DNA of 64,000 bases, taken from contig NZ_KB899241.1 in the NCBI RefSeq assembly GCF_000378125.1, forward strand, positions 719,652 to 783,651, given 5' to 3'. This document shows, one piece after another, positions 42,985-64,000 of the stretch. The position numbers were made by a program, and so were the translations under genes. The DNA comes from Rudaea cellulosilytica DSM 22992. Its GTDB lineage: Bacteria > Pseudomonadota > Gammaproteobacteria > Xanthomonadales > Rhodanobacteraceae. Positions within the stretch are counted from its first letter, which is position 1. The number at the start of each line of letters is the position of its first letter. Under the pieces are notes generated by a model, which did no database searches, was not told the DNA's origin, and was given only the letters and a program-made list of their open reading frames with translations.

Positions 42985-43455
42985 ATGTCGCAACGACAGT
43001 TGAAGATCAACGGCGAAGACAAGACAGTCGACGTTCCGGACAACATGCCCCTCTTATGGGTGTTGCGCGATGTGCTCGGCATGACCGGCACCAAATACGG
43101 CTGCGGCATCGCTCAATGCGGTGCTTGCACCGTACATCTCGACGGACGCGCCATCCGCTCCTGTCAGATGCCAGTTAGCGCCGTTGGGAGCCGCGCGATC
43201 ACGACGATCGAAGGCATTGGCAAAACTCCGACCGGTGCAAGGATTCAGAAGGCATGGCTCGACGAGGAAGTCGTGCAGTGCGGTTATTGCCAGAGTGGGC
43301 AGATCATGTCGGCGAGCGCACTGCTCGCCACAACGCCAAAGCCCGATGACGCCGACATCAATGCTGCGATGGCTGGCAACATCTGCCGTTGCGGGACCTA
43401 TGTGCGTATCCGCGCCGCGATCAAACGCGCGGCCGAAGGGGAGCAGCCGACATGA
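42985..43455 (+). CDS. 2Fe-2S subunit of a molybdenum hydroxylase (IorA/CoxS-like)
   Basis: 156-residue electron-transfer subunit. The plant-type cluster uses C40, C45, C48 and C60 ([15 protein letters not shown]...C) and the second, helical cluster uses CGYC and CRC near the C-terminus ([18 protein letters not shown]). It lacks a signal and is presumably exported as a complex with the Tat-tagged large subunit, whose ATG overlaps its stop (ATGA). An AAAGGAG site precedes the ATG. Confidence 0.95.
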
Positions 43456-45647
43456 ACGCGACGTTCAAGGACTCAATCGCCGAACCTTCGCGGCGCGCTT
43501 TCATTAAAGGCGGAGTGGCGGGCGGATTTCTGCTCGCCTTCCACGTGCCCGTGTTCGGCGGTATCAACGAGCCGAATCAGCCAGCCGACGATACGAACGG
43601 CAAGTTCGCACCGAATGCTTTCATCCGCATCGACAAAGCCGGCAAGACCACTCTGGTCATGCCGCAGGTCGAAATGGGGCAAGGCGTCTACACATCGGTC
43701 GCGATGATTCTCGCCGAGGAACTCGACGCCGACTATTCGCAAGTCACGCTCGAGCATGCGCCGCCGAATGACAAGGCATACGGCAACCCGACATTCGGCA
43801 TCCAGGTGACGGGCAACTCGAATTCGATTCGCGCGTTCTGGAAGCCGCTACGCACCGCCGGCGCCAGCGCCCGCGCGATGCTGATCCAGGCGGCAGCGAA
43901 ACAGTGGAAGGTAGATCCCTCGGGCTGCGCCGCGAGTGACGGCAAGGTTACGCACGGCGCGAGCAATCGCACGCTCTCGTACGCCGCGCTGGCGGATGCC
44001 GCATCGAAAGAGACACCGCCGAAAGACCCGCCGCTCAAGGACCCGAAGCAGTTCAAGTTGATCGGCAAGCCGCAGAAGCGGTTCGACACGCCGAGCAAGG
44101 TGGACGGTTCGGCGGTGTACGGTATCGACGCGATGTTACCCGGAATGAAGTTCGCGACAATCATGGCTTCGCCGGTGTTCGGCGGCAAAGTGAGCAAGGT
44201 TGACGACACCGCAGCGAAGCAGATTCCGGGCATGCAACTGGTGATCGCGCTCGACGACATGGTAGCGGTGATCGGCGATCATTTCTGGGCTGCGAAGTCC
44301 GGGCTCGATGCGCTCAAGATCACATGGGATCACGGCCCGAATGCTACCGTGAGCAATGACGCGATCTGGAAGCACCTGCGCGATGAGAGTGCGAAAGATG
44401 GCGTCATCGCCAAGTCAGTAGGTGACGTGAAGAAAGCGTTCGAGTCGGGCGAGAAATTTCACGCCGTTTACGAACTGCCGTTCCTCGCGCACGCGACGAT
44501 GGAGCCGATGAACTGCACCGTGCAGCTCAAGCCGGACGGCGGTTGTGAGATCTGGTTAGGCACGCAGGTGATATCGCGAGTGCAGCAGACTGTCGCAAAG
44601 CTGCTCGGCGTGTCCGACGACAAGGTCATCGTGCACAATCATTTAATCGGCGGCGGCTTCGGCCGTCGCCTCGAACCAGATATGGCGCTCAAGGCCGTGC
44701 GCGTGGCGCAGCGTCTGAACGGCGAACCGGTAAAGGTGGTCTGGTCGCGCGAGGAGGACATGCGGCAGGATGTCTATCGTCCCGTCTATCGCGACGAGAT
44801 TTCCGCGACAGTGAGCGACGGCAAGATCGCCGGCTGGAGATACAAGATTTCCGGCTCATCGGTCATCGCGCGCTGGCTTCCACCGGCGTTTCAGAAGGGC
44901 ATCGACATCGACTCCATAGATTGCGCGGTCGATCAGCCCTACGATTTTCCGAATTTGGAAGTGCAATACATGCGTGTCGAGCCGCCGGCGGTGCCGACCG
45001 GTTTCTGGCGCGGCGTCGGTCCGAACAACAATGTGTTCGCTATCGAATGCTTTATCGACGAGGTGGCGAAGAAACTCAACAAGGATCCGATCGCGTTCCG
45101 CAAGAGCATGCTCGACAAAGGCCCGCGTTTCAAAGCCGTGCTCGATCTGGTCGCGCAGAAATCCGCCTGGGGCCAGCCACTCGGCAAACGCGTCGGACGC
45201 GGCGTATGCCTGCAGCCGGCTTTCGGCAGCTTCATCGCCACGGTGATCGAAGCAGAAGTCGATGAGCAGGGCGAGGTGTTGTTGCGCAAGGTCAACTGCG
45301 CTGTGGACGCGGGGATCGTCGTCAATCCAGATACCGTCGTCGCGCAGTTGCAGGGGGGCATCATTTTCGGATTGACAGCGGCGCTGTACGGCGAAGTCAC
45401 CATCGACGGCGGCCGCGTGCAGCAATCCAATTTTCACAATTATCGAATGCTGCGCATCGATCAGATTCCATCGATCGACGTGCATATCGTACATAGCGGC
45501 GAGGCACCCGGTGGCATCGGTGAGACGGGTGCGACGGCTGGGCCGCCGGCGCTGCGCAATGCGATTTTCGCGGCCACCGGTATTCCCTTGCGACGATTGC
45601 CGATCGACCTCGACGTGCTCGCCGGGAGGAAGCAACCATGGGTATGA
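43452..45647 (+). CDS. Molybdenum hydroxylase large subunit, Tat-exported (IorB-like)
   Basis: 731-residue molybdopterin-binding catalytic subunit of the isoquinoline 1-oxidoreductase/aldehyde dehydrogenase group. The N-terminus carries a Tat motif SRRAFIK (R14-R15) and hydrophobic stretch. Cofactor-binding segments include [31 protein letters not shown] and [15 protein letters not shown] near the end, the last near the catalytic Glu. The cytochrome gene overlaps its end by 10 bp, so electrons probably flow to cytochrome c. Substrate could be an aromatic aldehyde or N-heterocycle. Confidence 0.92.
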
Positions 45648-46993
45648 CGCAGCGTGGCCGCGTTTTGCGCGTTCTCCTCATCGTCGTCGCAGTGCTGTTG
45701 GTGGCCGGTACAGCCTTTGCGATCTATTTACGCGGGCCGGGTCCGACCGATTTTGCAGGTGGTCAGAAGGTCGCACTGGCCGAGTATAAGGATACAAATC
45801 CGACATCGATTCCGGCATCGAAGAAAAGCGCCGATCCGATTCAGCGTGGCAAGTACCTAGCGGAAGCAGCCGACTGCCTGGTCTGCCACACCACACCCGA
45901 CGGTCAGCAATACGCGGGCGGCTTTGCGTTCACGCTGCCGTTTGGAACGATCTACTCGACCAACATCACACCCGACAAGGAAACCGGCATTGGCAACTAC
46001 ACCGATCAGGATTTCCTCGCCGCCGTGCATCGCGGCGTGCGCAAGGATGGTGCATGGATGTATCCGGCGATGCCGTTTACGTCGTACACGTATATGACCG
46101 ACGAAGACGCGCTCGCGATCAAGGCCTACCTCTTCAGTCTCACGCCCGTGCGTGCGCCGGCACGCGCGAACACACTCACGTTCCCATTCAACCAGCGCTG
46201 GGCGATCGGCCTGTGGTCGGCGGTTTTCAACCCGAACAAGCGCTTTCAGCCGGATAGTTCGAAATCGGCGGAGTGGAATCGCGGCGCATATCTATCCGAA
46301 GCGCTTGCGCACTGTGGTGAATGCCACACGCCGCGGAACATCGGATTCGCACTAAACAATCGAAAGAAGTTCGGTGGCGGGAATGCCGGCGGCTGGCTTG
46401 CCTACAACATCAGCGCCGACAAAGGCAGCGGCATCGGCAATTGGAGCGACGACGACGTCGCCGCCTATATCGGTCATGGTCACGCAAACAATCACGGCAG
46501 TGCGTCGGGCCCGATGGGCGAGGCGGTGTCGGAGAGTTTGAGTCGCCTAGAGCCCGAGGACCTCAGGGCGATTGTTGCCTACGTGCGCAGCGTACCGGCC
46601 ACGAGTTCCGACCTGCCTGCGCAGCTTGCACCACCCGCCCCGCGTTCGCACAGGGAGGGTTTCGCGGCGAACGCACGCGGCAAGCAGGTGTTCGAAGGTG
46701 CCTGCATGAGCTGCCACAACTGGGATGGCGTGGCTGATATCTCGCCCTATGCAACGCTCACGGGCTCGCGCGCGGTCAACGACCCGAGCGGCATCAACGT
46801 GGCGCAAATCGTGATCACCGGATCGGCGTCATGGAGCGAGAACGGTTCGCTGAACATGCCCGCGTTTGGCCAGACGTATTCGAACGAGGAAATCGCCGAG
46901 GTTGCGAATTACGTTACGGCGCGCTTTGGCACCCAGGGATCGTCGCTCACCGAACGGGATGTGGCGAGCTTGCGCCGTCAGTCAGCACAGTAG
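45638..46993 (+). CDS. Membrane-anchored three-heme cytochrome c
   Basis: 451-residue electron acceptor of the molybdenum hydroxylase. An N-terminal anchor helix (about 10-30) is followed by three cytochrome c domains with CLVCH (80-84), CGECH (226-230) and CMSCH (356-360), and Met ligands such as in YPAMPFTSY. Such triheme proteins occur with membrane-bound alcohol/aldehyde dehydrogenases and IorAB-type enzymes. It overlaps the large-subunit gene by 10 bp. Confidence 0.93.
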   Translation: MGMTQRGRVLRVLLIVVAVLLVAGTAFAIYLRGPGPTDFAGGQKVALAEYKDTNPTSIPASKKSADPIQRGKYLAEAADCLVCHTTPDGQQYAGGFAFTLPFGTIYSTNITPDKETGIGNYTDQDFLAAVHRGVRKDGAWMYPAMPFTSYTYMTDEDALAIKAYLFSLTPVRAPARANTLTFPFNQRWAIGLWSAVFNPNKRFQPDSSKSAEWNRGAYLSEALAHCGECHTPRNIGFALNNRKKFGGGNAGGWLAYNISADKGSGIGNWSDDDVAAYIGHGHANNHGSASGPMGEAVSESLSRLEPEDLRAIVAYVRSVPATSSDLPAQLAPPAPRSHREGFAANARGKQVFEGACMSCHNWDGVADISPYATLTGSRAVNDPSGINVAQIVITGSASWSENGSLNMPAFGQTYSNEEIAEVANYVTARFGTQGSSLTERDVASLRRQSAQ

Positions 46994-50910: not shown

Positions 50911-53469
50911 TCAGAAGCTGTAACGCACCCCACCCCAGATCAACCGCGGCGCACCCGGCGCAAAAAACGTCGTGCGTGGGACGGGATAGTTTCCGTCGCC
51001 CGGCGCGTTCGCCACGGCGGGAAACGGGCGCGCGACGAAGTGGCCGTCGGCATCGAAGCCCTGTGCGCCGAGCTGCGCTGCGGTGGCGTATTTGCGATTG
51101 AGCAAATTGTCGATCTGGGCGAAGAAGGTCAGCTTCGGCGTGGGTTTGTAGTTGAGACCGAAATCGAACACGCCGTAGCCGGCGGTCTTGCCGGGGCCGA
51201 GATAGTAGGTGCCGTCGGGCTGGTGCGCGTTGTTCTCGTTGCCGCGCGCGTACGCACCGTCCGTCGCGCGGAAGTCGAGGTTCAACGACAGCGTCTCGCC
51301 GAAGTCGTAGCCGACGAAAGCCTTGAAGGTCTGCTTCGGCACGAGCGGCAGGCGGTCGCCGGGCGTGACTGTGATCGTACCGCCACCAAGCCCGCGGAAT
51401 GCGGGATCTTCGAGCGCTAAACTGTTCGTGCTGTTGCCGTCGCCGGGAAACAGCCCGCTCGCCTCGTAGGTCGCATTGATCCAGGAATAATTCGCGCCGA
51501 AGCTCAGCGCATCGACGCGACTGTCGAAGCTGAGATCGATGCCTTCGCGCCGCGTCTTCGGGAAATTCTGGAAGAAGCCGGCGCCGGTCGCATCGGGCGC
51601 GGCGACGAAGAGGATGTCGTTCTTGTTCTCGGCGCGATACACGCTTGCGTTCCAGTGCGTGGCATCGCCGAGCGTGCCGCGCAGTCCTGCCTCGAGCGTG
51701 CGCGTGACGACCTGCTTGAGCGGCGGATCGCCGGCCATCGCGTTCGGCAGGCGGCAGGGATTCTCCTCGTTCGCGCAGCCGAGTTCGATCGCCGACGGCG
51801 CGCGGTTGCCTTCGTTGTAGCCGACGTAGGCGTTGAAGTTCGCGTTCGGCGTCCAGGTCAGGCCGACCGCTGGATTGAAGCGCTGGTAGACATCGTGGCC
51901 GTTGAGCGAGTCGATGCCGCCTTCGGGATTGAGCAGGTCGCGCGTCGTTGTGGACTCGCGGTTGTAGCGGCCGGAAACGACCACGGCCCACGTCTCTGCG
52001 AAGCTCAGCGTGTCGGTGAAGAATGCGCTCCAGGTGTGCGCGCGGCTTTTCAGGTTCACGCGCGAGTCGAACGCGTTTTCAGAGTCCTGCGTGCCGTCGA
52101 CGTAGGCGCCGGGGCCGTCGACGAGCACGACGTTGCGCTCCGGCGTGAGATAACCGAAGCGCGCGGACTGGGTGTAGCCGATGCGGTTCGCGTCGTAGGC
52201 GGCACCGACGATGAAGTCGTTGTGCTTGCCGCCGAAATCCTCGCTCCAGTTCAGCTGCAGGCCGAAGCCGAAGTTCTTCTGCCGTGCCTGCGTGAGCGTG
52301 TCGAGGCCGTTGCACTTCTCGTTCGGCTCGGAGTTGAGCAGGATGTTCGCGATGCAGCGCCATTGTGGATACGGCGTATTCGCTGCATTCGCGCCGCTGG
52401 TCGGAAAACCGCTGTAACCGGCCGCGAGCAGGGCTGCCTGTTCCGCTGCGCTCGGCTGGTAGACCGACTCGCCGATCGCATCGTCGTTGATGTCGCCGTT
52501 GTGCGTATGCGTGTCGATCTTGCGCAAGTAGACGTTGCCGGCCAGCGACAGCGCGTCGCTGAAGCGATGGTGGCCTTCGAGATTGAGATAGTGCGATTCG
52601 TTCTGCGTGCGGTCGGGCGTATACGAGCTGGCATAGTCGCGCGCCATCAAGTGCATCTCCTGCAGGCCGTTGCCGGTGAGCAGATCCTTGACGTAGGCGT
52701 AGCTCAGGTCGAGGTCGTCATCGTCGCCGTGCCAACCGACCTTGCCGAACAACTGGCCCTGGTCGCTCGGCGAATGTTCGCGCCAACCGCCATCGGTGAA
52801 ATAGTGGGCATTGAGGTACCAGTCGAACGCGCCTTCGGCGCCGCCGGTCTGCAAGTCGGCGCTGCCGCGCGCGTGCGCGCCGTAGCTCATCTCCACGGTC
52901 GTGCCGGGATCGCTGCGACCGCTCTTGGTTTCGATCGACAGCGCGCCGCCGAGCGTGTTGAGACCGAACAGCGGATTCGATCCCGGCATCAGCGTGATGC
53001 CTTCGATCGCGTTGCGCGGGATCAGGTCCCAACTGACCACGTCGCCGAACGGCTGGTTGAGGCGCACGCCGTCCATGTACACCGACAGGCCTTGCGGCGT
53101 GCCGAGCAGAGGCGAGGCCGTGTAGCCGCGAAAATTCACGTCGGGCTGCAGCGGATTGCCGGCGACCTCGTTGAACGTGAGGCCGGCGAACTTGCGGTTG
53201 AGGAATTCGGTCAGGTCGTTCGCATTGCTTTCGCGCAGCTCGTCCGCCGAGGCGGTCTGGACGGGTGCGGCGATCTTGTCGAGCGATTCGCCGCCGCCGT
53301 TGAGCGGCGTCACTTCGATGGTGTCGAATTTGACGACTGGCGGTTTCGTGGCCGCATCGCTGTCGGCGTTGCTGTCATCGCTGGCGACGACGTTGCCGAT
53401 CACGGCCAGCAGCGTCGTGGCCAACACGGCGCGCGGCAACCGGCGCTTCGCAGGAATCGTATGCCTCAT
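50911..53469 (-). CDS. TonB-dependent outer-membrane receptor, substrate unknown
   Basis: 852-residue receptor: signal peptide, TonB-box region FDTIEVTPL, plug domain (about 60-180) with YMDGVRLNQPFGDVVSW and GSNPLFGLNTLGGALSIETKSG, then a 22-strand barrel ending in Phe (GVRYSF). It follows the YncD-like receptor gene by 165 bp on the same strand. Its position in a lanthanide-type quinoprotein locus makes metal or metallophore uptake an attractive guess, but nothing in the sequence proves it. Confidence 0.9.
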   Translation of the reverse strand: MRHTIPAKRRLPRAVLATTLLAVIGNVVASDDSNADSDAATKPPVVKFDTIEVTPLNGGGESLDKIAAPVQTASADELRESNANDLTEFLNRKFAGLTFNEVAGNPLQPDVNFRGYTASPLLGTPQGLSVYMDGVRLNQPFGDVVSWDLIPRNAIEGITLMPGSNPLFGLNTLGGALSIETKSGRSDPGTTVEMSYGAHARGSADLQTGGAEGAFDWYLNAHYFTDGGWREHSPSDQGQLFGKVGWHGDDDDLDLSYAYVKDLLTGNGLQEMHLMARDYASSYTPDRTQNESHYLNLEGHHRFSDALSLAGNVYLRKIDTHTHNGDINDDAIGESVYQPSAAEQAALLAAGYSGFPTSGANAANTPYPQWRCIANILLNSEPNEKCNGLDTLTQARQKNFGFGLQLNWSEDFGGKHNDFIVGAAYDANRIGYTQSARFGYLTPERNVVLVDGPGAYVDGTQDSENAFDSRVNLKSRAHTWSAFFTDTLSFAETWAVVVSGRYNRESTTTRDLLNPEGGIDSLNGHDVYQRFNPAVGLTWTPNANFNAYVGYNEGNRAPSAIELGCANEENPCRLPNAMAGDPPLKQVVTRTLEAGLRGTLGDATHWNASVYRAENKNDILFVAAPDATGAGFFQNFPKTRREGIDLSFDSRVDALSFGANYSWINATYEASGLFPGDGNSTNSLALEDPAFRGLGGGTITVTPGDRLPLVPKQTFKAFVGYDFGETLSLNLDFRATDGAYARGNENNAHQPDGTYYLGPGKTAGYGVFDFGLNYKPTPKLTFFAQIDNLLNRKYATAAQLGAQGFDADGHFVARPFPAVANAPGDGNYPVPRTTFFAPGAPRLIWGGVRYSF

Positions 53470-53634: not shown

Positions 53635-55785
53635 TCAGCGCTTCCACGTGACGTGCACGCCGGCGAATACGGAGCATCCCGGCGCCGGCTCGAAGTAGCG
53701 ACCGTTGCTCTCGTTGACGATGACCGATCCGGCGTAATTCTTGTCGAACAGGTTCTGCACGCGCAGGAAGGTGGAAACGGTCGTCGACGCGGTCTCGAAC
53801 ACATAACCGGTACCGAGCGACAGCGTGCCGTAGCCCGGCGCATATTGGGTGTTGAGGTCGTTGACCGGCGTCGCGCTCGCGGCGTTCGCCTCGATCGTCG
53901 CGTTCCAGCCAAGTGCCTCGCCCCAGCGCAGCGCGGCGTAGAGGTTCGAGCGCGGCACGCCCGGGATGCGTGCGCCCGCGGCGACGGGTGTGTTCGGTTT
54001 CGTGCAGGTCGACGCGGCCGGGCAGGTGAGGAACGGCGAGAGGAATTTCGCGTCGAGATACGTGTAGGCCAGTTGCGCATGCCAGCGCGCCGCGAGCGGC
54101 AGGTCGAGCTTGAACTCCGCGCCGCGCCGGCGCGCGCGGTCGACGTTCTGGTAGGTCGTGCGGCCGCCGCTCGACGTGGCCACGGCGATCTCGTTGCGCG
54201 TGTCTGCGTTGAACACGGCGACATCGAATTCGCCGCCGCTCTCAAAGTGCCACTTCGAGCCGACTTCGCCATTGCGGCTGCGCGCAGGCACGAGGCCGAA
54301 GTTGATGCCGGCGCTGCCGTCGGGTCGATAGCCGAGTTCGTTGAACGTCGGCGTCTCGAAGCCGCGCCCGTACGAGGCGTAGAGATGCCACTGCTCGTTG
54401 GCGCGGTAGAGCAGGCCCGCGACCGGTGTCGTCGCCGAATAGTCCGCGCGGCCGCTGTCGTTGCCATTGCCCGGCACGATGTAGTTGTCGTCGGCGGAGA
54501 ATTTCACTTCGCTGTGGCGCAGGCCGGCGCTGGCAAGCCAGTTGTCGGCGAAGCTCCATGTCGCCTGTGCGTACTCATCGAAGTTGGAAACGAGATTCTG
54601 CTCGTCGCGGCGCAACGCGCCTTTCACGCCGAGCGTGCTGCCGAGATAGTTGTTGTAGCCTTGGCGATGCTGGTCCTGGCGATCGTAGCTGACGCCAACC
54701 GCGAGATCGAACGGCCGCTCGGCCAGGACACTGTTGTACGTCCAGCGCGCGTCGCCGCCGCCGTAGTCGCCGCCGAGTTCGATTACGCCGCCCGGACTCG
54801 TCGCCGCTTTCTGCGTCGCCACCGGGATCGACTGGAATTGCTCGACGTCGCGGTGGCCGAGGTAGCCGAGCACGCGCAGGCTTTGCGTGTCGCTCAACGG
54901 CTGCTCGTAGATCGCACCACCCTGCTGCTGGTGCACGCTCTTGCGCGTGTCGAACAGCGCAGCACTTGCCACCGCCTGGCGCGGGTCGGTTTCGAACTGC
55001 GCGCGCGTCAGACCGAGCGCATCGTCGGCGTTCGGCAGCGCGACCGTGTTCGCGAGCAGGGTGAGCTTGCGTCCCGCGCCGAGGTCGAACGTGAACTTGG
55101 CGTTGCCATTGCTGCGTTCGGCGTAGCCGTGGCCGCGGTAGCCGTCGGTGTGAAACTGCGACAGGTCCACGTTGTAGCCGACGATGCCTTCACGCCCGCG
55201 CGCATTCGCGCCGAGGCGCAGCGTGCCGTAGCTGCCGCCGGTCGCATCGAAACGCCATTCGGGACGATCGCTGCCGTCGGCGGTGAAGATCTGAATCACG
55301 CCGCCGGATGAGTTTCCGTACAGCGCCGAGAACGGTCCGCGCAGCACCTCGATGCGTTCGGCCGCGCCGAGCGGGAAGTTCGAGACTTGGCCCTGGCCGT
55401 CGGGCATCGTTGCCGGAATGCCGTCGACGTAGAGGTGCACACCGCGCACGCCGAAGGTCGAGCGCGCACCGAAGCCGCGGATCGAGATCTGTTCGTCTTG
55501 CGCATAGTTCTGTCGATCGCGTGTGAGTAGTCCCGGAACGCCTTGCAGGAATTCGGACGGATTGACGCCGAGCGAGTCGCCCGGCGCAACCTTGACCGAG
55601 TCGATCGCGCCGGGCACATCGAACGCGGAATGCTCGCTGCGCGTCGCCGTAACGACGATGTCGGGCAGGACCGGCTTGGGCTGCGCATCCGTTGCGTCCG
55701 CATCGGCCGCATGCGCGACGCGGAGCGGACCGAGCGCGATGCAAATGGGCAGTGCGGCGACGAGAAATGGAAAAGGCTTCAGCAC
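53635..55785 (-). CDS. pqqU: TonB-dependent PQQ receptor (YncD/PqqU-like)
   Basis: 716-residue outer-membrane receptor. The plug contains RQNYAQDEQISIRGFGAR, GVRGVHLYVDGIPATMPDG and LRGPFSALYGNSSGGV; the barrel has NYIVPGNGNDSG, YGRGFETPTFNEL and ends with SVIVNESNGRYFEPAPG and a terminal Arg. These blocks match, nearly word for word, what I know of E. coli YncD, the receptor that imports pyrroloquinoline quinone (renamed PqqU). Its place next to a PQQ-dependent dehydrogenase fits that role. The TonB-box region is LPDIVVTAT. Confidence 0.88.
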   Translation of the reverse strand: MLKPFPFLVAALPICIALGPLRVAHAADADATDAQPKPVLPDIVVTATRSEHSAFDVPGAIDSVKVAPGDSLGVNPSEFLQGVPGLLTRDRQNYAQDEQISIRGFGARSTFGVRGVHLYVDGIPATMPDGQGQVSNFPLGAAERIEVLRGPFSALYGNSSGGVIQIFTADGSDRPEWRFDATGGSYGTLRLGANARGREGIVGYNVDLSQFHTDGYRGHGYAERSNGNAKFTFDLGAGRKLTLLANTVALPNADDALGLTRAQFETDPRQAVASAALFDTRKSVHQQQGGAIYEQPLSDTQSLRVLGYLGHRDVEQFQSIPVATQKAATSPGGVIELGGDYGGGDARWTYNSVLAERPFDLAVGVSYDRQDQHRQGYNNYLGSTLGVKGALRRDEQNLVSNFDEYAQATWSFADNWLASAGLRHSEVKFSADDNYIVPGNGNDSGRADYSATTPVAGLLYRANEQWHLYASYGRGFETPTFNELGYRPDGSAGINFGLVPARSRNGEVGSKWHFESGGEFDVAVFNADTRNEIAVATSSGGRTTYQNVDRARRRGAEFKLDLPLAARWHAQLAYTYLDAKFLSPFLTCPAASTCTKPNTPVAAGARIPGVPRSNLYAALRWGEALGWNATIEANAASATPVNDLNTQYAPGYGTLSLGTGYVFETASTTVSTFLRVQNLFDKNYAGSVIVNESNGRYFEPAPGCSVFAGVHVTWKR

Positions 55786-55907
55786 AAATATCCCCGGGGC
55801 GTTGGCGCTATGACGCGCCTTCGCAACGAATGGTATCGGTCGCGTCGCGATTCGCGTCTAGTGATTTTCTTGATTTTTCGATTTCGAGCGGTGCGGCGGA
55901 ATTCGCC

Positions 55908-56294
55908 TCAATCGACTTTTCCTTGCGCGCGCAGGGCATCGAACTCCGCATCGCTGAACAACCGCGAGCGCACGAGGAAACGCACGCCGCGGCCGTTCTC
56001 GAGCGAGAACATGCCGCCTTGGCCGGCCACGACGTCGATAATCAATTGGGTGTGCTTCCAATATTCGAACTGCGGTTTGCTGATGTAGAACGGCAGGCCG
56101 CCGATGTCGCCGAGGCGCACGTCGCTGTCATCGCCGACGAGGAACTCACTGCGCGGATAACACATCGGCGAGGACCCGTCGCAGCAGCCGCCCGACTGGT
56201 GGAACAGCAAGTCAGTACCATATTCGGCACACAATTCGCCGATCAGCGCGACTGCCGCCGGTGTCGCCGTCACTTGCAGCGGTAGCTCGGCCAT
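55908..56294 (-). CDS. DUF779 protein
   Basis: 128-residue small protein with FHQSGGCCDGSSPMCYP, the conserved Cys motif of DUF779, and EYWKHTQLIIDVVAGQGGMFSLE. DUF779 genes usually lie beside acetaldehyde/aldehyde dehydrogenase genes (AdhB-associated). No signal peptide. It follows the fused binding/cytochrome gene by 70 bp. A metal- or redox-linked accessory role is likely but unproven. Confidence 0.9.
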   Translation of the reverse strand: MAELPLQVTATPAAVALIGELCAEYGTDLLFHQSGGCCDGSSPMCYPRSEFLVGDDSDVRLGDIGGLPFYISKPQFEYWKHTQLIIDVVAGQGGMFSLENGRGVRFLVRSRLFSDAEFDALRAQGKVD

Positions 56295-56364
56295 GATTGC
56301 CTCCTCGTTGCGGCGGAAGCGCGCCGACCCATGCGGCCGGCGCGCCGTCGGGCCGTTGCCGTTC

Positions 56365-57618
56365 CTATTCGCCGTAGTAGCGGATCGGAACGCGCGATTT
56401 GATCGCCTCGTCGTAGCTCAACTCTTTGCTTCCGGACGGATAGCCGTTCTGCTTGAGCAGGTACGCCATGATGTCGACGTTCTGCTCGTCGGTGAGGCTG
56501 CCCGGTTTCTGTGCCGGCATCAGCTTGGCGACGAAGCGGAAGATCTCGTCGACGTGGAAGTCGTAGCTCGGGTCGGCAAAATCCTTGCCCTTCAACGCCG
56601 GGCCAGGGTAGCCGCCACGCTGTCCGTCCAGCAGCGGGCCGTGGCACATGCTGCAGTTCTGGAAGTAGGCTGTCGTGCCCTTGGCCGCCTGTTCCTCGGT
56701 ATACAGCGCCGGTGGTTTTGCCTTCGCGCTCTTCGACCTAGCGACTTTCGCCGCGGCCTTCGGTTTCTCGTCGCCGCAGCGCTGCGCCGTCGCGGGAGGT
56801 CGCAGTCCGAGCGTGTGTCGCGCGATCGAAGCCTGCGGCGTGCGCGCCGTGGCGGCCAGATACGGCTTGACCAGGGCGTCGAGCTTCACTCCGCGCAGCG
56901 CGTCAAGTCCCTTCGCGAAAACCGCGGCGGCATCCTTCGACGCTGGCGCGTACAACGCGACGAGATTCCACTGCATGTGCGCTCCGGGCAGAAGTTGCGA
57001 ACGCAGGCCGGCAGCGTGATGCTCATTCTCATAGGCTTGCAGGAACGACAGCCAGGTCAGCCCGGCCGCGATCTTGCCCCTGGCCACGTCGGCGAGCATG
57101 TCGGCATCGTTGCGGTAGACGTGCATGACGATGTTCGGGTGGCTGCTGAACAGCATGCCCGCCCAGGTGTCGAGCTGGGCGATGCCGACTTCGCTGCCCT
57201 GACGCAGTTCGGCCAGCGACTTCGTCGGCGCTTTGCTGCGCTGGACCATGACGAAGCCGGTGCCGGCATAAGCTGGCGTCGCCTCGACGCGTGGTGGCAA
57301 GTGCGGATCGTTGACGTCGACCGGAAAGCCCATGATGAGCGCGCACTCGTTTTCGGCGAGACGGGCGAACTTGGCGATCGGGAAGCCGTCGTCTTCTTCC
57401 TTGCCGTGGCCGACGAACGCGACCGGTTCCATCGCATAGCCTTGCGTCGCCAGCGCTTCGCGCGCGATGCGCGTGTCGGTCGCCGAGGTCGGGTTGGCCG
57501 AATCGATGCACACCTTGATCGTCGTTGCCGCGTCGGCGCGGTGCGTGAGCACCGCGCCGAGCGCGAACGTTGCGGCGATCGCGAGACGCGCCGCGGTTCT
57601 GTCAGAGCGAGAAGACAT
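56365..57618 (-). CDS. Fusion of XoxJ/PedG-like binding protein and cytochrome c
   Basis: 417-residue exported protein. The ATG at 57618 overlaps the dehydrogenase gene by 17 bp. Signal cut near ADA (30). Residues 33-265 are a periplasmic-binding-like domain as in quinoprotein-associated XoxJ/MoxJ/PedG (IKVCIDSANP, GFPVDVND, SEVGIAQLDTWAG). A Lys/Ala linker (285-303) leads to a cytochrome c domain with CSMCH (322-326) and probable axial Met 367 (LMPAQKPGSL). In characterised methylotrophs these two functions are separate proteins (XoxJ and XoxG). This one should both contact and drain electrons from the PQQ dehydrogenase. Confidence 0.88.
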   Translation of the reverse strand: MSSRSDRTAARLAIAATFALGAVLTHRADAATTIKVCIDSANPTSATDTRIAREALATQGYAMEPVAFVGHGKEEDDGFPIAKFARLAENECALIMGFPVDVNDPHLPPRVEATPAYAGTGFVMVQRSKAPTKSLAELRQGSEVGIAQLDTWAGMLFSSHPNIVMHVYRNDADMLADVARGKIAAGLTWLSFLQAYENEHHAAGLRSQLLPGAHMQWNLVALYAPASKDAAAVFAKGLDALRGVKLDALVKPYLAATARTPQASIARHTLGLRPPATAQRCGDEKPKAAAKVARSKSAKAKPPALYTEEQAAKGTTAYFQNCSMCHGPLLDGQRGGYPGPALKGKDFADPSYDFHVDEIFRFVAKLMPAQKPGSLTDEQNVDIMAYLLKQNGYPSGSKELSYDEAIKSRVPIRYYGE

Positions 57619-59317
57619 ACAGGTGTCCGCCCTTCGGGATCGCCTTGACCGCCGGGTCGTTGGCCATCTGGCCGCCCCAGATCGGGCTCGCGCCACCCCA
57701 GCCGGCCCAGACGGCGATGTACTGCTTGCCACCGACTTTGTAGGTCGTCGGCACGCCGATGATGCCCGAGGTGAGCTGGTCGCTCTTCCACAGCACCTTG
57801 CCGGTCTTCGAGTCAAAGGCATGCAGATAACCATCCGAACTGCCGCTGATCACGAGGCCGCCGCCGGTCGCGAGCATCGGTCCGTTCCATGGCAATGCCG
57901 TGTCGAACTTCCACACCTGCTTGCCGGTGTTAAGGTCGAGTGCCTGCACGGTGCCCCAGTTGTTGTTCGCCGGGTCGTGCTTGACCTCGAAACTGGCATC
58001 GAGGAACGCGAGGCCGGCTTTGTATGCGACCGGTTCGCTGCCCTTGATGTCCATACAGGCGTTGAGCGTCGGGATGAACACCAGATGCTGGGTCGGATCG
58101 ATCGCGGTCGGCCACCAGTTCTTGCCGCCAAGGAAGCTCGGGCAGGCGAAGACCTGCTTGTCGACAGTTGGACGCAGGTCGGCGGCTGTCTGGTTCACGC
58201 CGTCCTTCAAGCCGGTCACGGTGTTGGTGTGGACGAACGGCTCGGCATAGATCGGCTTTCCGGTCGTGCGATCGAGCGCGTAGTAATAGCCGTTGCGATC
58301 GGCGTGGACCAAGGCTTTGTAATTCTTGCCCTCGTAGGTGATGTCGGTCAGGATCGGCTCGTTCGTGCCGTCATAGTCCCAGGTGTCGTTTTCGGTCCAC
58401 TGGTAGTACCACTTGATCTTGCCGGTCGCGGGGTTCAGCGCGAGGACCGAATCCGTGTACAGGTTCTTGCCCGGACGCAGTGTCGCCAGCCACGGGCCCG
58501 GGTTGCCGACGGTCCAGAACAGCGTGTCGGTCTCGGTGTCGTACGAGCCCGGCAGCCACGGATTGCCGCCGCCGGTCTGGTACGCGCCCTTCGGCCACGT
58601 ATCGCCGCCCGGCTCGCCCGGCGCGGCAGTCGTGTGCGTCTGCCAGAGGATCTTGCCGGTCTTGGCATCGAGCGCCGAGATGAAGCCGCGTGCGCCGTAC
58701 TCGCCGCCGCCGGTGCCGACGATGACCTTGCCCTTGACGATGAGCGGTGCCGACGTCATGAAATAGCCGACGCCAGGATCCCACAGCTTGGTGCTCCACT
58801 TCTCCTTGCCGGTCTTCGCGTCGAGCGCGATGACGTGATTGTCGAGCGTCTCGAGGTAGACATTGTTCTCGTACAGCGCCGCGCCGCGGTTGACGACATC
58901 GCAGCACACGGTCTTCAGCGCCTTCTCGTTGATCTTGGCAACGTACTTCCACAACTCCTTGCCGGTCGCCGCGTCGAACGCGACGACGTGATCCATCGGC
59001 GTCGTTACGATCATGACGTCGCCGTTGACCAGTGGGGCACCTTCGTGGCCCTGAGTCAGGTCGCTCTTGTAATCCCAGGCGACCTTGAGCTTGCTGACGT
59101 TGGTTGCATTGATTTCGCCGTGCGGCGAGTAGCCCGACGCCGTGTAGTCGTGCCGGTACATCAGCCAGCCGTCGTCCTTGGCCGCGTTGACGAGACGTGC
59201 GTCGGTCACGGCCTGGTAGTCCGCGGCCAGCGCCTGTGTGCTTCCTGTGCCGAGCACGGTGAAGCCGAGTGCGCATGCGCTGAACAGTCGGTTCGCTTTG
59301 ATTCGATGGAAAGTCAT
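57602..59317 (-). CDS. PQQ-dependent alcohol dehydrogenase, lanthanide-type signature
   Basis: 571-residue periplasmic quinoprotein (signal cut near ALA, 31). The eight-blade propeller shows W-motif repeats (DAATGKELWKY, DAKTGKEKWST, DLNTGKQVWKF, DSKTGKVLWKS). The vicinal disulfide is C138-C139 (TVCCDV), E206 (GGGEYG) and N271 (GNPGPW) are the metal ligands, D314 is the catalytic base. Two residues on, D316 (WDYDG) supplies the extra carboxylate typical of lanthanide enzymes such as XoxF and PedH; calcium enzymes have Ala or Ser there. So a Ln-dependent alcohol dehydrogenase is predicted. Confidence 0.92.
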   Translation of the reverse strand: MTFHRIKANRLFSACALGFTVLGTGSTQALAADYQAVTDARLVNAAKDDGWLMYRHDYTASGYSPHGEINATNVSKLKVAWDYKSDLTQGHEGAPLVNGDVMIVTTPMDHVVAFDAATGKELWKYVAKINEKALKTVCCDVVNRGAALYENNVYLETLDNHVIALDAKTGKEKWSTKLWDPGVGYFMTSAPLIVKGKVIVGTGGGEYGARGFISALDAKTGKILWQTHTTAAPGEPGGDTWPKGAYQTGGGNPWLPGSYDTETDTLFWTVGNPGPWLATLRPGKNLYTDSVLALNPATGKIKWYYQWTENDTWDYDGTNEPILTDITYEGKNYKALVHADRNGYYYALDRTTGKPIYAEPFVHTNTVTGLKDGVNQTAADLRPTVDKQVFACPSFLGGKNWWPTAIDPTQHLVFIPTLNACMDIKGSEPVAYKAGLAFLDASFEVKHDPANNNWGTVQALDLNTGKQVWKFDTALPWNGPMLATGGGLVISGSSDGYLHAFDSKTGKVLWKSDQLTSGIIGVPTTYKVGGKQYIAVWAGWGGASPIWGGQMANDPAVKAIPKGGHLYVFSL

Positions 59318-59339: not shown

Positions 59340-60527
59340 TCAGAAGAAAATGATTCCGCCGAGCGAGCCGCCGAACATCTTCGCGGTATTGCCCAGGTAG
59401 TCCTTCGAGCGCGTGTCGCCTATTTCGCCGGCGAGCGTGATGCTCTTGGTCAGGCCGTAGTAGAGGCCGGCGGTGACGTTGGTGTTCGACTTGAACGAGC
59501 CGTTGAGCGCGACGTTGGTCGCGTTGTCGTCCTTGTTGCGGCTCTCGCCGTAGTTGAGGCCGAACTTGAGCTTGTCGGTGACCTTGTAGGTGCCTTGGAT
59601 CAGATAGTTGCGACCCTTGACCGGTCCCTGGTCGCCATCGGTCAGAATGCCGATGCCCTTGCCTTCCTGATAATTGGCGAGGAAGCCGAACGGACCGTTG
59701 GCATACGACACGCCGATTTCGCCCGCCGTCTCGGCGAAGCCGCCGGTACCGGCGCCGGCGTCGGCGAAGTGCTGCATCTTCGCGCCGATCCAGGCCTTGA
59801 AGCCGTTGCCCGACCAGGCCAGTTGCGCCTGGTATTGCGGCCCTGCCTGCGAGGCGTACAAGCCGCTGTCGACCGGACTGACGAGAGCACCAGTGAAAGT
59901 GAAGCCACTGCCAAGCACGGGCGAGGTGTAGGTCATCTGGCCATAGGTGCCGAGGTAGGTGTAACCGGCACCGATGTGGCCGAGGGTGACGCGACCGCGT
60001 TGCGTCGCTTGCACCGGCGCACCGGCACCGAGCAAGGTCATGTCGCTCAAGATCGCATTCGCGCCGAACACGCCGTAGTCGCGGCCGATCTTGAGCGTGC
60101 CCGCTTCCGCCGTGCCGATCGTGAAGAACGCCTGGCGCACATCGACGGCGCTGTTCGCGGCGATGCCGGAATCGGTGGCCGCGTGCACCATGATGCCGAT
60201 CGTGCCGCCGATGTCGAGGCCATCCTGGCTGGTCTTGAACTTGGTGATGAGCCCGCTCGGCAGCAGGCCGTTGCCGATTGAGGTCTTGCTGCTTTCGCCG
60301 CTGCAGCCGAGCCCTCGCCCGGCGAGTGCCGGACCGCCGACCGCGTCGCCCGAGCAGCTCACCGTCGTCGCATAAGCATTGACGATGCCGCCGACGTCGA
60401 CGGTCCAGTCTCCCGACACGATCTCGACCGCGCCGGCTTGCCCCGCGGCCAACGCAGCAGCGATGGCCGCTGCCGTCAACAGTCGCTGCTGCGACCGTCT
60501 GGATTGCTTCAATGGAATTGCGTGCAC
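59340..60527 (-). CDS. Gram-negative porin
   Basis: 395-residue outer-membrane barrel. I choose the GTG at 60527 (VHAIPLKQSRRSQQ) because a GGGAGGA site lies 4 bp before it; an upstream TTG is possible. Signal cut near AGA (36). The barrel shows repeated amphipathic strands with VDVRQAFFTIGTAEAGTLKIGRDYGVF, the porin signature, and a terminal Phe (GIIFF). Two Cys near residue 59 and 74 may form a loop disulfide. Between the aldehyde and alcohol dehydrogenase genes, it probably admits the alcohol substrate. Confidence 0.87.
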   Translation of the reverse strand: MHAIPLKQSRRSQQRLLTAAAIAAALAAGQAGAVEIVSGDWTVDVGGIVNAYATTVSCSGDAVGGPALAGRGLGCSGESSKTSIGNGLLPSGLITKFKTSQDGLDIGGTIGIMVHAATDSGIAANSAVDVRQAFFTIGTAEAGTLKIGRDYGVFGANAILSDMTLLGAGAPVQATQRGRVTLGHIGAGYTYLGTYGQMTYTSPVLGSGFTFTGALVSPVDSGLYASQAGPQYQAQLAWSGNGFKAWIGAKMQHFADAGAGTGGFAETAGEIGVSYANGPFGFLANYQEGKGIGILTDGDQGPVKGRNYLIQGTYKVTDKLKFGLNYGESRNKDDNATNVALNGSFKSNTNVTAGLYYGLTKSITLAGEIGDTRSKDYLGNTAKMFGGSLGGIIFF

Positions 60528-60616
60528 GTTTCCTCCCAAACAGTGGTTGATGGAAAAACTACTTCGCGGCAGCCGCGCAGCGCCTCGTTGCCGTTACGCG
60601 GCCGCACACATCCCCA

Positions 60617-60664: not shown

Positions 60665-62185
<1,521 letters not shown>

Positions 62186-62222
62186 GACACTGAGGCTCCG
62201 GGTTGATGGGCGCCTACCTAGA

Positions 62223-62237
62223 GCACGCAGCGTGCCA
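62223..62237 (-). promoter_or_regulatory. Sigma-54 (-24/-12) promoter of the aldehyde dehydrogenase gene
   Basis: Minus strand: TGGCAC (62237-62232), five bases, GTGC (62226-62223), with T before and G after the -24 element: an excellent match to TGGCACG-N4-TTGC with one mismatch at the -12 box. Transcription would start about 62213, giving a 28-nt leader before the ATG at 62185. Confidence 0.85.
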
Positions 62238-62358
62238 ATCCGCTGTACTGCCGTGGTGCAACATCGTAAAAACACTTGCCCGCAAATGCCCACCTCAGTG
62301 CATTGCTGCGCTGCGCAATACCTGGCATTTGGTCTGTATTGCAATCGTTGAAAATTTG

Positions 62359-62418: not shown

Positions 62419-64000
62419 ATGACCGATTCCGCTCTGGACCGAATCCAAACCGCACGGCATCGCTTCTTCGATCAAGGCGATGCGCCGCGCGGACTCGTGC
62501 CTGCGTCGATCCTGCGCTCGTGGCAACGTTGCGCGGGGCTGGGTCTGTCGGAGAATGCGCGGCCTAACGTCGAGCCGCTGGCCGCCACCGCGCTGCGCGA
62601 GGTCTGCCAAAAATACGAAGAGCTGCGCCGCGTCAGCCTGCCCGAAGTGCGCGCGCTATATGCCGATGCGCATGCGACCGGCAGCATCGTCATCCTCACC
62701 GCGCCTGACGGCATGATCCTCGAGGCGCTTGGCAGCGCGAACTTTCTCGACAAGGCGGCACGCGTGTCGCTGCGCCCGGGTGTGCCGTGGAACGAAAACC
62801 ATACCGGCACGAACGCGATCGGCACGGCGATGATCGAAGGTCGCGCGATCGAAGTGCGCGGACCCGAACATTTCTTCGCGCCGCATCGCGTGCTCAGTTG
62901 TTCGGCGGTGCCGATCGTCGATCCGTTCGGCAAGATCGCCGGCGTGCTCGATCTCTCGGGCGAATCCTCGGTGCATCACACGCACGCGCTTGGCATGGTG
63001 CGCTTTGCCGTCGACCAGATCGAGCGGCGTCTGTTCAAACGTGACTTTCCCGGCTGCCGCGTGTTGCGTGTGCAGCGTGATGCCGGCCTGTTCGGCACGG
63101 CGCAGGAAGGCATCCTCGTGTTCGACGGCGAACGCCTCGTTGCGGCCAACCGGCATGGCCTGGGCATGCTCAACCTCGTCCGCGGCGACATCGGCCGCAG
63201 GGAATTCGGCGATCTGTTCGATGCCAAGGTCGAATCGCTGCAAAGCGAGGCGAACCTGCGCGACCATCTTAACAAGCCCATCTTCGTGCGCAGCGATGAG
63301 GCAGCGCCGCATCGGCCGGTAACGGTTTCGACATCGCCGCCCACAGCGGTCGCCGACCATCGCATCGGCAGCGAGCCCGTGTTCGGCGAGCAACTGACCT
63401 TCGAGCTCGATCGCGCGGAACGTGTGCTGCGCGCCGGCATGTCCGTGCTCCTGCTCGGCGAGACCGGCACCGGCAAGGAAGTATTCGCGCGCGAGCTGCA
63501 CCGCCGCCTCGGCAATCGCATGCCATTCGTCGCGGTCAACTGCGCGGGCTTGCCCGAGAGCCTGATCGAATCGGAATTGTTCGGCTACGACGAAGGTGCG
63601 TTCACCGGAGCGAAGCGCCAGGGGACGAAAGGCCTGTTGCGCGAGGCTGACGGCGGCGTGCTGTTCCTCGATGAGATCGGCGATATGCCGCTCGCTGCGC
63701 AGACGCGCCTGCTGCGCGTGCTGCAGGAGCGCGAGGTCACGCCGCTCGGCGGGGGCAAACCGGTCAAGGTCGATTTCACCGTCATCGCCGCGACCAACCG
63801 CAATCTCAATGTCGGCACGCTCGAGCAGTTCCGTTCGGACCTGTTCTTCCGCATCGCGCACTACACGGTGAATCTGCCCGCGCTGCGCGCATATCCCGAT
63901 CGCCGCGCGCTGATCGAAACGTTCTGGCGCCGTCTTGCGGCGGCGACGCCGATCGAAGCGAGCGCGCTTGACGTCCTCGCAGGCTACGACTGGCCCGGCA
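62419..64000 (+). CDS. Sigma-54-dependent activator (AcoR-like), 3' end cut by window
   Basis: 527 codons are visible; the gene runs off the end. The N-terminal region resembles the GAF-type AcoR sensor (SWQRCAGLGLS, NHTGTNAIGTAM). The AAA+ domain begins near 315 with Walker A GETGTGKE, the sigma-54-contacting loop GAFTGA, Walker B-type LFLDEIGDMP, and an Arg-finger region RSDLFFRIAH. The C-terminal HTH is outside. It is divergent from the aldehyde dehydrogenase gene and very probably activates it. The likely signal is an alcohol or aldehyde. Confidence 0.92.
   Translation, partial: MTDSALDRIQTARHRFFDQGDAPRGLVPASILRSWQRCAGLGLSENARPNVEPLAATALREVCQKYEELRRVSLPEVRALYADAHATGSIVILTAPDGMILEALGSANFLDKAARVSLRPGVPWNENHTGTNAIGTAMIEGRAIEVRGPEHFFAPHRVLSCSAVPIVDPFGKIAGVLDLSGESSVHHTHALGMVRFAVDQIERRLFKRDFPGCRVLRVQRDAGLFGTAQEGILVFDGERLVAANRHGLGMLNLVRGDIGRREFGDLFDAKVESLQSEANLRDHLNKPIFVRSDEAAPHRPVTVSTSPPTAVADHRIGSEPVFGEQLTFELDRAERVLRAGMSVLLLGETGTGKEVFARELHRRLGNRMPFVAVNCAGLPESLIESELFGYDEGAFTGAKRQGTKGLLREADGGVLFLDEIGDMPLAAQTRLLRVLQEREVTPLGGGKPVKVDFTVIAATNRNLNVGTLEQFRSDLFFRIAHYTVNLPALRAYPDRRALIETFWRRLAAATPIEASALDVLAGYDWPG

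Follow-up and report, generated by a model that had tools for sequence, protein, structure and literature searches.

The 64,000-nucleotide stretch of the Rudaea cellulosilytica DSM 22992 genome analyzed here (contig NZ_KB899241.1, positions 719,652 to 783,651; hereafter the window) carries seven co-directional minus-strand genes, from 62344 to 50911, among them genes for an alcohol dehydrogenase that uses pyrroloquinoline quinone (PQQ) and for two TonB-dependent receptors. A sequence-only reading of this DNA had described a YncD-like receptor for PQQ (53635-55785, minus strand) encoded on the same strand as the dehydrogenase (57602-59317, minus strand). These coordinates proved exact, and the shared strand with a quinoprotein alcohol dehydrogenase that uses PQQ was confirmed. 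Two members of the block were missing from that account, a gene for a binding protein joined to a cytochrome and a second TonB-dependent receptor (TBDR2). With moderate confidence, we propose that the seven genes form one alcohol-oxidation block that would combine the alcohol dehydrogenase and its electron acceptor with an aldehyde dehydrogenase and with receptors for PQQ and for a lanthanide. The genes and their divergent neighbor are as follows.

60665..62344, minus: ExaC-type acetaldehyde dehydrogenase (NF050026 ExaC, 958 bits, cut-off 900, match beginning at residue 65)
59340..60539, minus: porin-like outer membrane protein (no Pfam match)
57602..59317, minus: lanthanide-type (D-x-D) PQQ alcohol dehydrogenase with the motif WDYDGTNE, 571 residues (TIGR03075, alignment with 6zcw, motif table)
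56365..57618, minus: MoxJ-like binding domain fused to a c-type cytochrome (aligned family matches, Pfam cytochrome models)
55908..56294, minus: DUF779 protein (PF05610, 143 bits)
53635..55785, minus: PqqU, predicted TonB-dependent receptor for PQQ, 716 residues (NF041535, YncD 6v81, contact residues, tree)
50911..53469, minus: TBDR2, second TonB-dependent receptor, candidate LutH-like receptor (TonB plug and barrel, association with dehydrogenases, kinship)
62419..64000, plus, extending to about 64260: divergent sigma-54 activator with a GAF domain (PF00158, 194 bits; PF01590, 41 bits)

The receptor for PQQ

By its sequence, the product of 53635-55785 is PqqU (YncD), for which uptake of PQQ is predicted. 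The two sequence blocks cited in the sequence-only reading, GIPATMPDG and VNESNGRYFEPAPG, are both present and align with YncD. The window receptor is 42.4% identical to Escherichia coli K-12 PqqU over 729 columns (BLASTP), and the same comparison gives only about 50-57 bits to BtuB, CirA, and TBDR2. Its match in the PDB is YncD 6v81 (E 3e-166), and its best NCBIfam model is NF041535 PqqU (E 3e-209, 697 bits). In a receptor tree of 56 rows, with BtuB and CirA as comparison receptors and long outgroup rows, the window protein lies inside a 24-row clade with E. coli PqqU (100/100), apart from BtuB, CirA, and TBDR2. This placement and the binding-site signature described below support the YncD/PqqU identity first suggested for the receptor.

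Ten of the 11 PQQ-contact residues tested are identical to those of E. coli PqqU, and the eleventh, Y99F, is accepted as a permitted variant in the available text of Munder et al. 2025 (PMC12124388). The window protein shows F, R, R at the positions of the signature given in that study (Y/F/W99, R304, R365), as do the other 36 rows of our residue table, which comprises 37 full-length rows with the window protein included and excludes pieces with less than 80% coverage. Position 274 is lysine in 35 of these rows (the window protein among them), arginine in one, and valine in one. The available text of Munder et al. (PMC12124388) raises the possibility that E274 forms co-transport a metal with PQQ. 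Such co-transport is unlikely for the window PqqU, given K274 here and glutamate in 0 of the 37 rows. The window protein thus resembles E. coli PqqU, as portrayed in the available text of PMC12124388, in clade, contact residues, and K274; its gene neighborhood differs, as pqqU of E. coli K-12 adjoins yncE and mcbR, whereas the window gene sits in a PQQ dehydrogenase block.

Supply of PQQ in this genome and its relatives

The window proteins examined include no pqq gene product, as had been observed before. The further suggestion that the organism cannot make PQQ fails: a search of the genome for pqqA-E located pqqABCDE on contig C3 (L006 8128-11199), and PQQ auxotrophy is rejected on that basis. 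PqqA has 24 residues, is encoded just upstream of pqqBCDE, and is 83% identical to its counterpart in genome G031 and 75% identical to PqqA as annotated in Burkholderia multivorans. PqqC is 75% identical to that of G031, 69% to that of B. multivorans, and 42-45% to those of seven other loci of the order, a pattern that makes gain of the pqq genes by transfer plausible. The locus as a whole is Burkholderia-like and differs from most of the compared loci with pqq genes in the order, and a two-component system was seen by eye upstream of it on the opposite strand.

A survey of 398 genomes of the same order places this genome among its relatives. PqqU was found in 214 genomes, pqqC in 34, and PQQ alcohol dehydrogenases in 65; PqqU occurs with pqqC in 29 genomes and without it in 185. 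Eighteen genomes encode PqqU at a distance of about 10 kilobases (kb) or less from a PQQ alcohol dehydrogenase; 17 of them lack pqqC, the exception being the present genome. Thus pqqC occurs in 1 of 18 genomes with PqqU near the dehydrogenase and in 20 of 35 with PqqU elsewhere (Fisher p 2.6e-4, uncorrected for kinship). The idea of a scavenging locus in an organism that cannot make the cofactor therefore fits the relatives but not this genome, in which the presence of pqqABCDE would make scavenging unnecessary for survival. According to the available text of Munder et al. (PMC12124388), 23% of PqqU bearers have biosynthesis genes. The only other genome of the genus in the survey, G267, also has PqqU; it gave no match to a TIGR03075 dehydrogenase, TBDR2, or pqqC at the thresholds used, which leaves its PqqU with no evident client of the TIGR03075 family.

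The second receptor and lanthanide-type dehydrogenases

The window dehydrogenase passes TIGR03075, the model of the PQQ methanol/ethanol dehydrogenase family (572 bits, cut-off 480). Among solved structures it is closest in sequence to 6zcw, a quinoprotein ethanol dehydrogenase that we take to be Pseudomonas putida PedH, and the D-x-D site reads WDYDGTNE in the window enzyme and WDFDGVNE in 6zcw. Conserved aspartates for lanthanide binding by XoxF are described in the available text of PMC10875860. By its motif, the window dehydrogenase is of the lanthanide type and would be expected to use a lanthanide. The WDYDGTNE subfamily occurs in 14 of the 398 genomes, with PqqU nearby in 11 and a TBDR2-family receptor nearby in eight; both receptors are present somewhere in the genome in all 14. 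Thirteen of the 14 lack pqqC, which is found in the Rudaea genome only.

The same genome encodes a second lanthanide-type PQQ alcohol dehydrogenase above the family cut-off on contig C1 (L124 8166-10283, motif WDYDGINE). Its neighbors, assigned by eye, are a cytochrome-like gene, a binding-protein-like gene with an ankyrin-like tail, and a sigma-54-type regulator, and the L124 stretch contains neither PqqU nor TBDR2. A further, more distant dehydrogenase scores below the family cut-off.

TBDR2 is associated with the lanthanide-type enzymes across the order. We examined 89 places that encode a PQQ alcohol dehydrogenase; the fragment in L223, which does not cover the motif region, was excluded, and a weak second copy in L185, absent from the original list of matches, was included. 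Some loci are truncated by contig ends, such that "not near" may equal "not seen." A TBDR2-family receptor lies near 33 of the 51 places with aspartate (D) at the key position and near 0 of the 38 without it. When the full motif is used, the counts are 33 of 43 and 0 of 46, with 17 of the 43 full-motif places coming from two genera and with p values that ignore kinship among genomes. Counted by genus, the receptor is close to the dehydrogenase in 13 of 19 genera with the lanthanide type and in 0 of 19 others. All 37 full-motif genomes contain a member of the TBDR2 family, which in one case came up only under a looser cut-off applied to no more than six genomes, and the family is absent from three genomes with a D-x-D-A variant.

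The association also holds when approached from the receptor. All 31 of the genomes reached through TBDR2 alone and searched encode a PQQ alcohol dehydrogenase, and the best copies in these genomes carry the fuller motif in 26 of 30 cases and D at the fourth place in 28 of 30. In a set of 74 named TBDR2 loci, gathered with exact peptide patterns and hence biased toward close kin, 22 of the 23 dehydrogenases adjoining the receptor carry D at the key position. The sub-clade of the window TBDR2 also includes receptors from Janthinobacterium, Caulobacter, Sphingomonas, and Methylomonas, and the receptors found beside the same enzyme subfamily in relatives belong to two other sub-clades, for a total of three. 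Recruitment of the same partner from different TBDR2 branches points to a working link with the dehydrogenase.

Kinship connects TBDR2 with lanmodulin. In Methylobacterium nodulans, a TBDR2-family receptor is followed by a response regulator and then by an EF-hand protein that matches lanmodulin. This receptor is 30% identical to TBDR2 over 817 columns (E 3e-91), as opposed to 43 bits against PqqU, and it lies inside the 29-row TBDR2 clade (100/100). In Methylorubrum extorquens, lutH and lanM carry neighboring locus numbers in the available text of PMC7391723. A TBDR2-family member in another lanmodulin-bearing genome adjoins genes that match TIGR03863, TIGR03866 (a beta-propeller), and an ABC-2 transporter, whose family names refer to the PQQ alcohol system. 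When 347 genomes were scanned for lanmodulin, two matches came up; a TBDR2-family receptor is present elsewhere in one of these two genomes, and none lies within about 9.5 kb of either match. Near the CM4 lanmodulin, annotation alone, with incomplete plasmid gene tables, lists no receptor. A PDB sequence search with TBDR2 returned nothing at 1e-5. From its association with lanthanide-type enzymes and its kinship, traced via the M. nodulans receptor, we regard TBDR2 as a candidate LutH-like lanthanide receptor.

Regulatory genes recur around TBDR2. One family of response regulators and one of histidine kinases are each present in 30 of 80 TBDR2 loci (e.g. L047 and L088, with L202 12312-12965 and L275 6045-8304 as further examples) and could possibly be a metal-sensing system. 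In G031 (L275 3810-10836), a TBDR2 relative adjoins a two-component pair and genes for glutathione-dependent formaldehyde oxidation.

The block as an alcohol-oxidation unit

The remaining genes of the block can be placed with varying precision. The listed start of the ExaC-type gene is an upstream TTG, and the true start is likely an ATG near 62185. Homologues of the porin-like protein at 54-66% identity adjoin the same dehydrogenase in several relatives. The identity of the fusion gene as MoxJ-like emerged only through alignment: of the 12 family members in the alignment, every one matches both TIGR03871 (best 2.3e-8) and TIGR03872 (best 4.8e-7), whereas the window protein alone matches these models only at 0.03 and 0.01 and a single-sequence PDB search gave little. 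The Pfam cytochrome models match it clearly. Its AlphaFold model (mean predicted local distance difference test score, 72) led Foldseek to amino-acid-type binding proteins, and XoxJ is absent among the 50 matches listed. Upstream of the block, the divergent sigma-54/GAF activator is possibly its regulator. Four kb beyond the other end of the block, at 43389-46993 on the plus strand, the large subunit of a molybdopterin-type aldehyde oxidoreductase precedes a multi-heme cytochrome c. The two represent a further periplasmic system for aldehyde oxidation, and a TetR-like regulator (by eye) and an aldehyde dehydrogenase come after this pair.

Close packing suggests that the genes are read together. 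The start codon of the fusion gene (ATG at 57618) lies within the last bases of the dehydrogenase gene, and 22 bases separate the end of the porin-like gene from the dehydrogenase start. A single transcript across the seven genes, i.e. an operon, is probable. In this unit, alcohol would reach the periplasm, perhaps through the porin-like protein, and would be oxidized there by the dehydrogenase with PQQ and a lanthanide. Electrons would pass to the MoxJ-like/cytochrome c fusion, and ExaC would oxidize the resulting aldehyde. PqqU would import metal-free PQQ, and TBDR2, as a LutH-like receptor, would import the lanthanide, either free or as a chelate. Scavenged PQQ would sustain the enzyme in relatives that lack pqqC, and in the present genome PqqU may top up the supply or recapture home-made PQQ that has leaked.

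Each part of the block is of a known kind. Like the system of LutH in Methylorubrum extorquens (available text of PMC7391723), TBDR2 is tied to lanthanide-type PQQ enzymes, with the M. nodulans receptor as the bridge; it differs in that its gene lies beside pqqU and an ethanol-type enzyme, with no lut-type ATP-binding cassette (ABC) genes among the seven genes of the block. LutH-like receptors are broadly distributed in methane oxidizers according to the available text of PMC12482762. The ped cluster of P. putida (PedH, PedI) likewise combines a lanthanide-type PQQ dehydrogenase with an ExaC-type aldehyde dehydrogenase; the available text of a 2026 review (PMC12997753) gives P. putida no LutH homologue and calls its outer membrane route for lanthanides unresolved, whereas the window block itself encodes a receptor, together with pqqU. 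The fusion protein pairs a MoxJ-like binding domain with a c-type cytochrome for a PQQ enzyme, much as XoxG and XoxJ serve XoxF. Methylacidiphilum has a fused cytochrome cGJ. Compared with XoxG/XoxJ and cGJ, the window version is one protein with the J-like domain first and is distant in sequence. A literature search whose coverage left out most subscription papers found no report of PqqU encoded with a lanthanide receptor. The available text of Munder et al. (PMC12124388) tests PqqU synteny with the pqq operon and contains no passage on synteny with quinoproteins.

Several observations weigh against this interpretation. The intergenic gaps before PqqU and TBDR2 are 122 and 165 bases, respectively, and a promoter and terminator scan of the block was at chance level, so that co-transcription is no more than probable. 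The NF041535 score of the receptor (697 bits) falls under the curated cut-off of 1200; 0 of the 398 order genomes reach this cut-off and E. coli does, which suggests that the threshold was set for E. coli-like members. PqqU shows no significant preference for the lanthanide type (near 14 of 51 places with D at the key position and four of 38 others, p 0.06), as would be expected of a receptor that serves PQQ enzymes irrespective of their metal. The genome encodes PQQ synthesis. Two genomes have TBDR2 and no dehydrogenase match. A TBDR2-family receptor is nearby at only one of four lanmodulin places examined, and G596, with a lanmodulin-like match, has no such receptor at 1e-20. No lanmodulin or lut-type ABC genes were found in the seven block genes and two flanking stretches, the rest of the genome lying outside this search. 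An Ideonella relative of TBDR2 adjoins a gene annotated as a nickel transporter.

The last of these points suits an alternative in which TBDR2 imports a different substrate, for instance a chelate of iron, copper, or nickel, and accompanies the dehydrogenase because of a need for heme iron in the cytochromes or some other shared demand. TonB siderophore models do match TBDR2, if weakly and far under cut-off, and the family is broad, its Ideonella member lying about 5.5 kb from methanobactin-related genes. We consider this alternative unlikely, because TBDR2 tracks the lanthanide-type enzymes and not the other PQQ dehydrogenases, although those need cytochromes too, and because its kin in M. 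nodulans is one gene from lanmodulin. That the dehydrogenase uses calcium, with D-x-D not a sign of lanthanides here, is very unlikely: the lanthanide assignment comes from the motif, but the residues are the same as in 6zcw and in XoxF-type enzymes, whose lanthanide-binding aspartates appear in the available text of PMC10875860, and the TBDR2 partner occurs only with dehydrogenases of the D-x-D type. At least as improbable is a shift of the PqqU homologue to another small anionic substrate, an idea that draws on its modest identity to E. coli PqqU and its score below the equivalog cut-off and that has to contend with the retention of the tested PQQ-contact residues and with the PQQ enzymes adjoining PqqU in 18 genomes.

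A larger challenge concerns the role of PqqU in this genome. It might only recapture the cell's own leaked PQQ, or be a relic of a pqq-minus ancestor that later acquired pqq genes by transfer, with no scavenging of foreign PQQ in either case. The presence of pqqABCDE, the PqqC identities, and the lack of pqqC in nearly all genomes with the WDYDGTNE subfamily all speak for it, and the available text of Munder et al. (PMC12124388) discusses diffusion loss of PQQ and recapture by producers. A high-affinity receptor would, however, import PQQ from any source, and the role may be mixed. We treat this alternative as a serious one that falls somewhat short of even odds.

Overall, we predict that the two-receptor block imports both halves of the cofactor, PQQ and the lanthanide, with the metal entering through a separate receptor recruited from at least three sub-clades and with most bearers relying on the PQQ of their neighbors; the chances of this full reading appear evenly balanced. 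The block is relevant to the proposal of joint metal and PQQ transport by some PqqU forms, as the K274 kept in its PqqU suggests that the metal would not travel with PQQ but through the separate receptor. It also offers a candidate family of lanthanide receptors outside methylotrophs. As pqqC is absent from most bearers in the order, rare-earth-dependent alcohol oxidation in these bacteria would rely on PQQ that neighbors release; if the prediction is true, a single dedicated gene set would take up PQQ and rare earths as shared goods.

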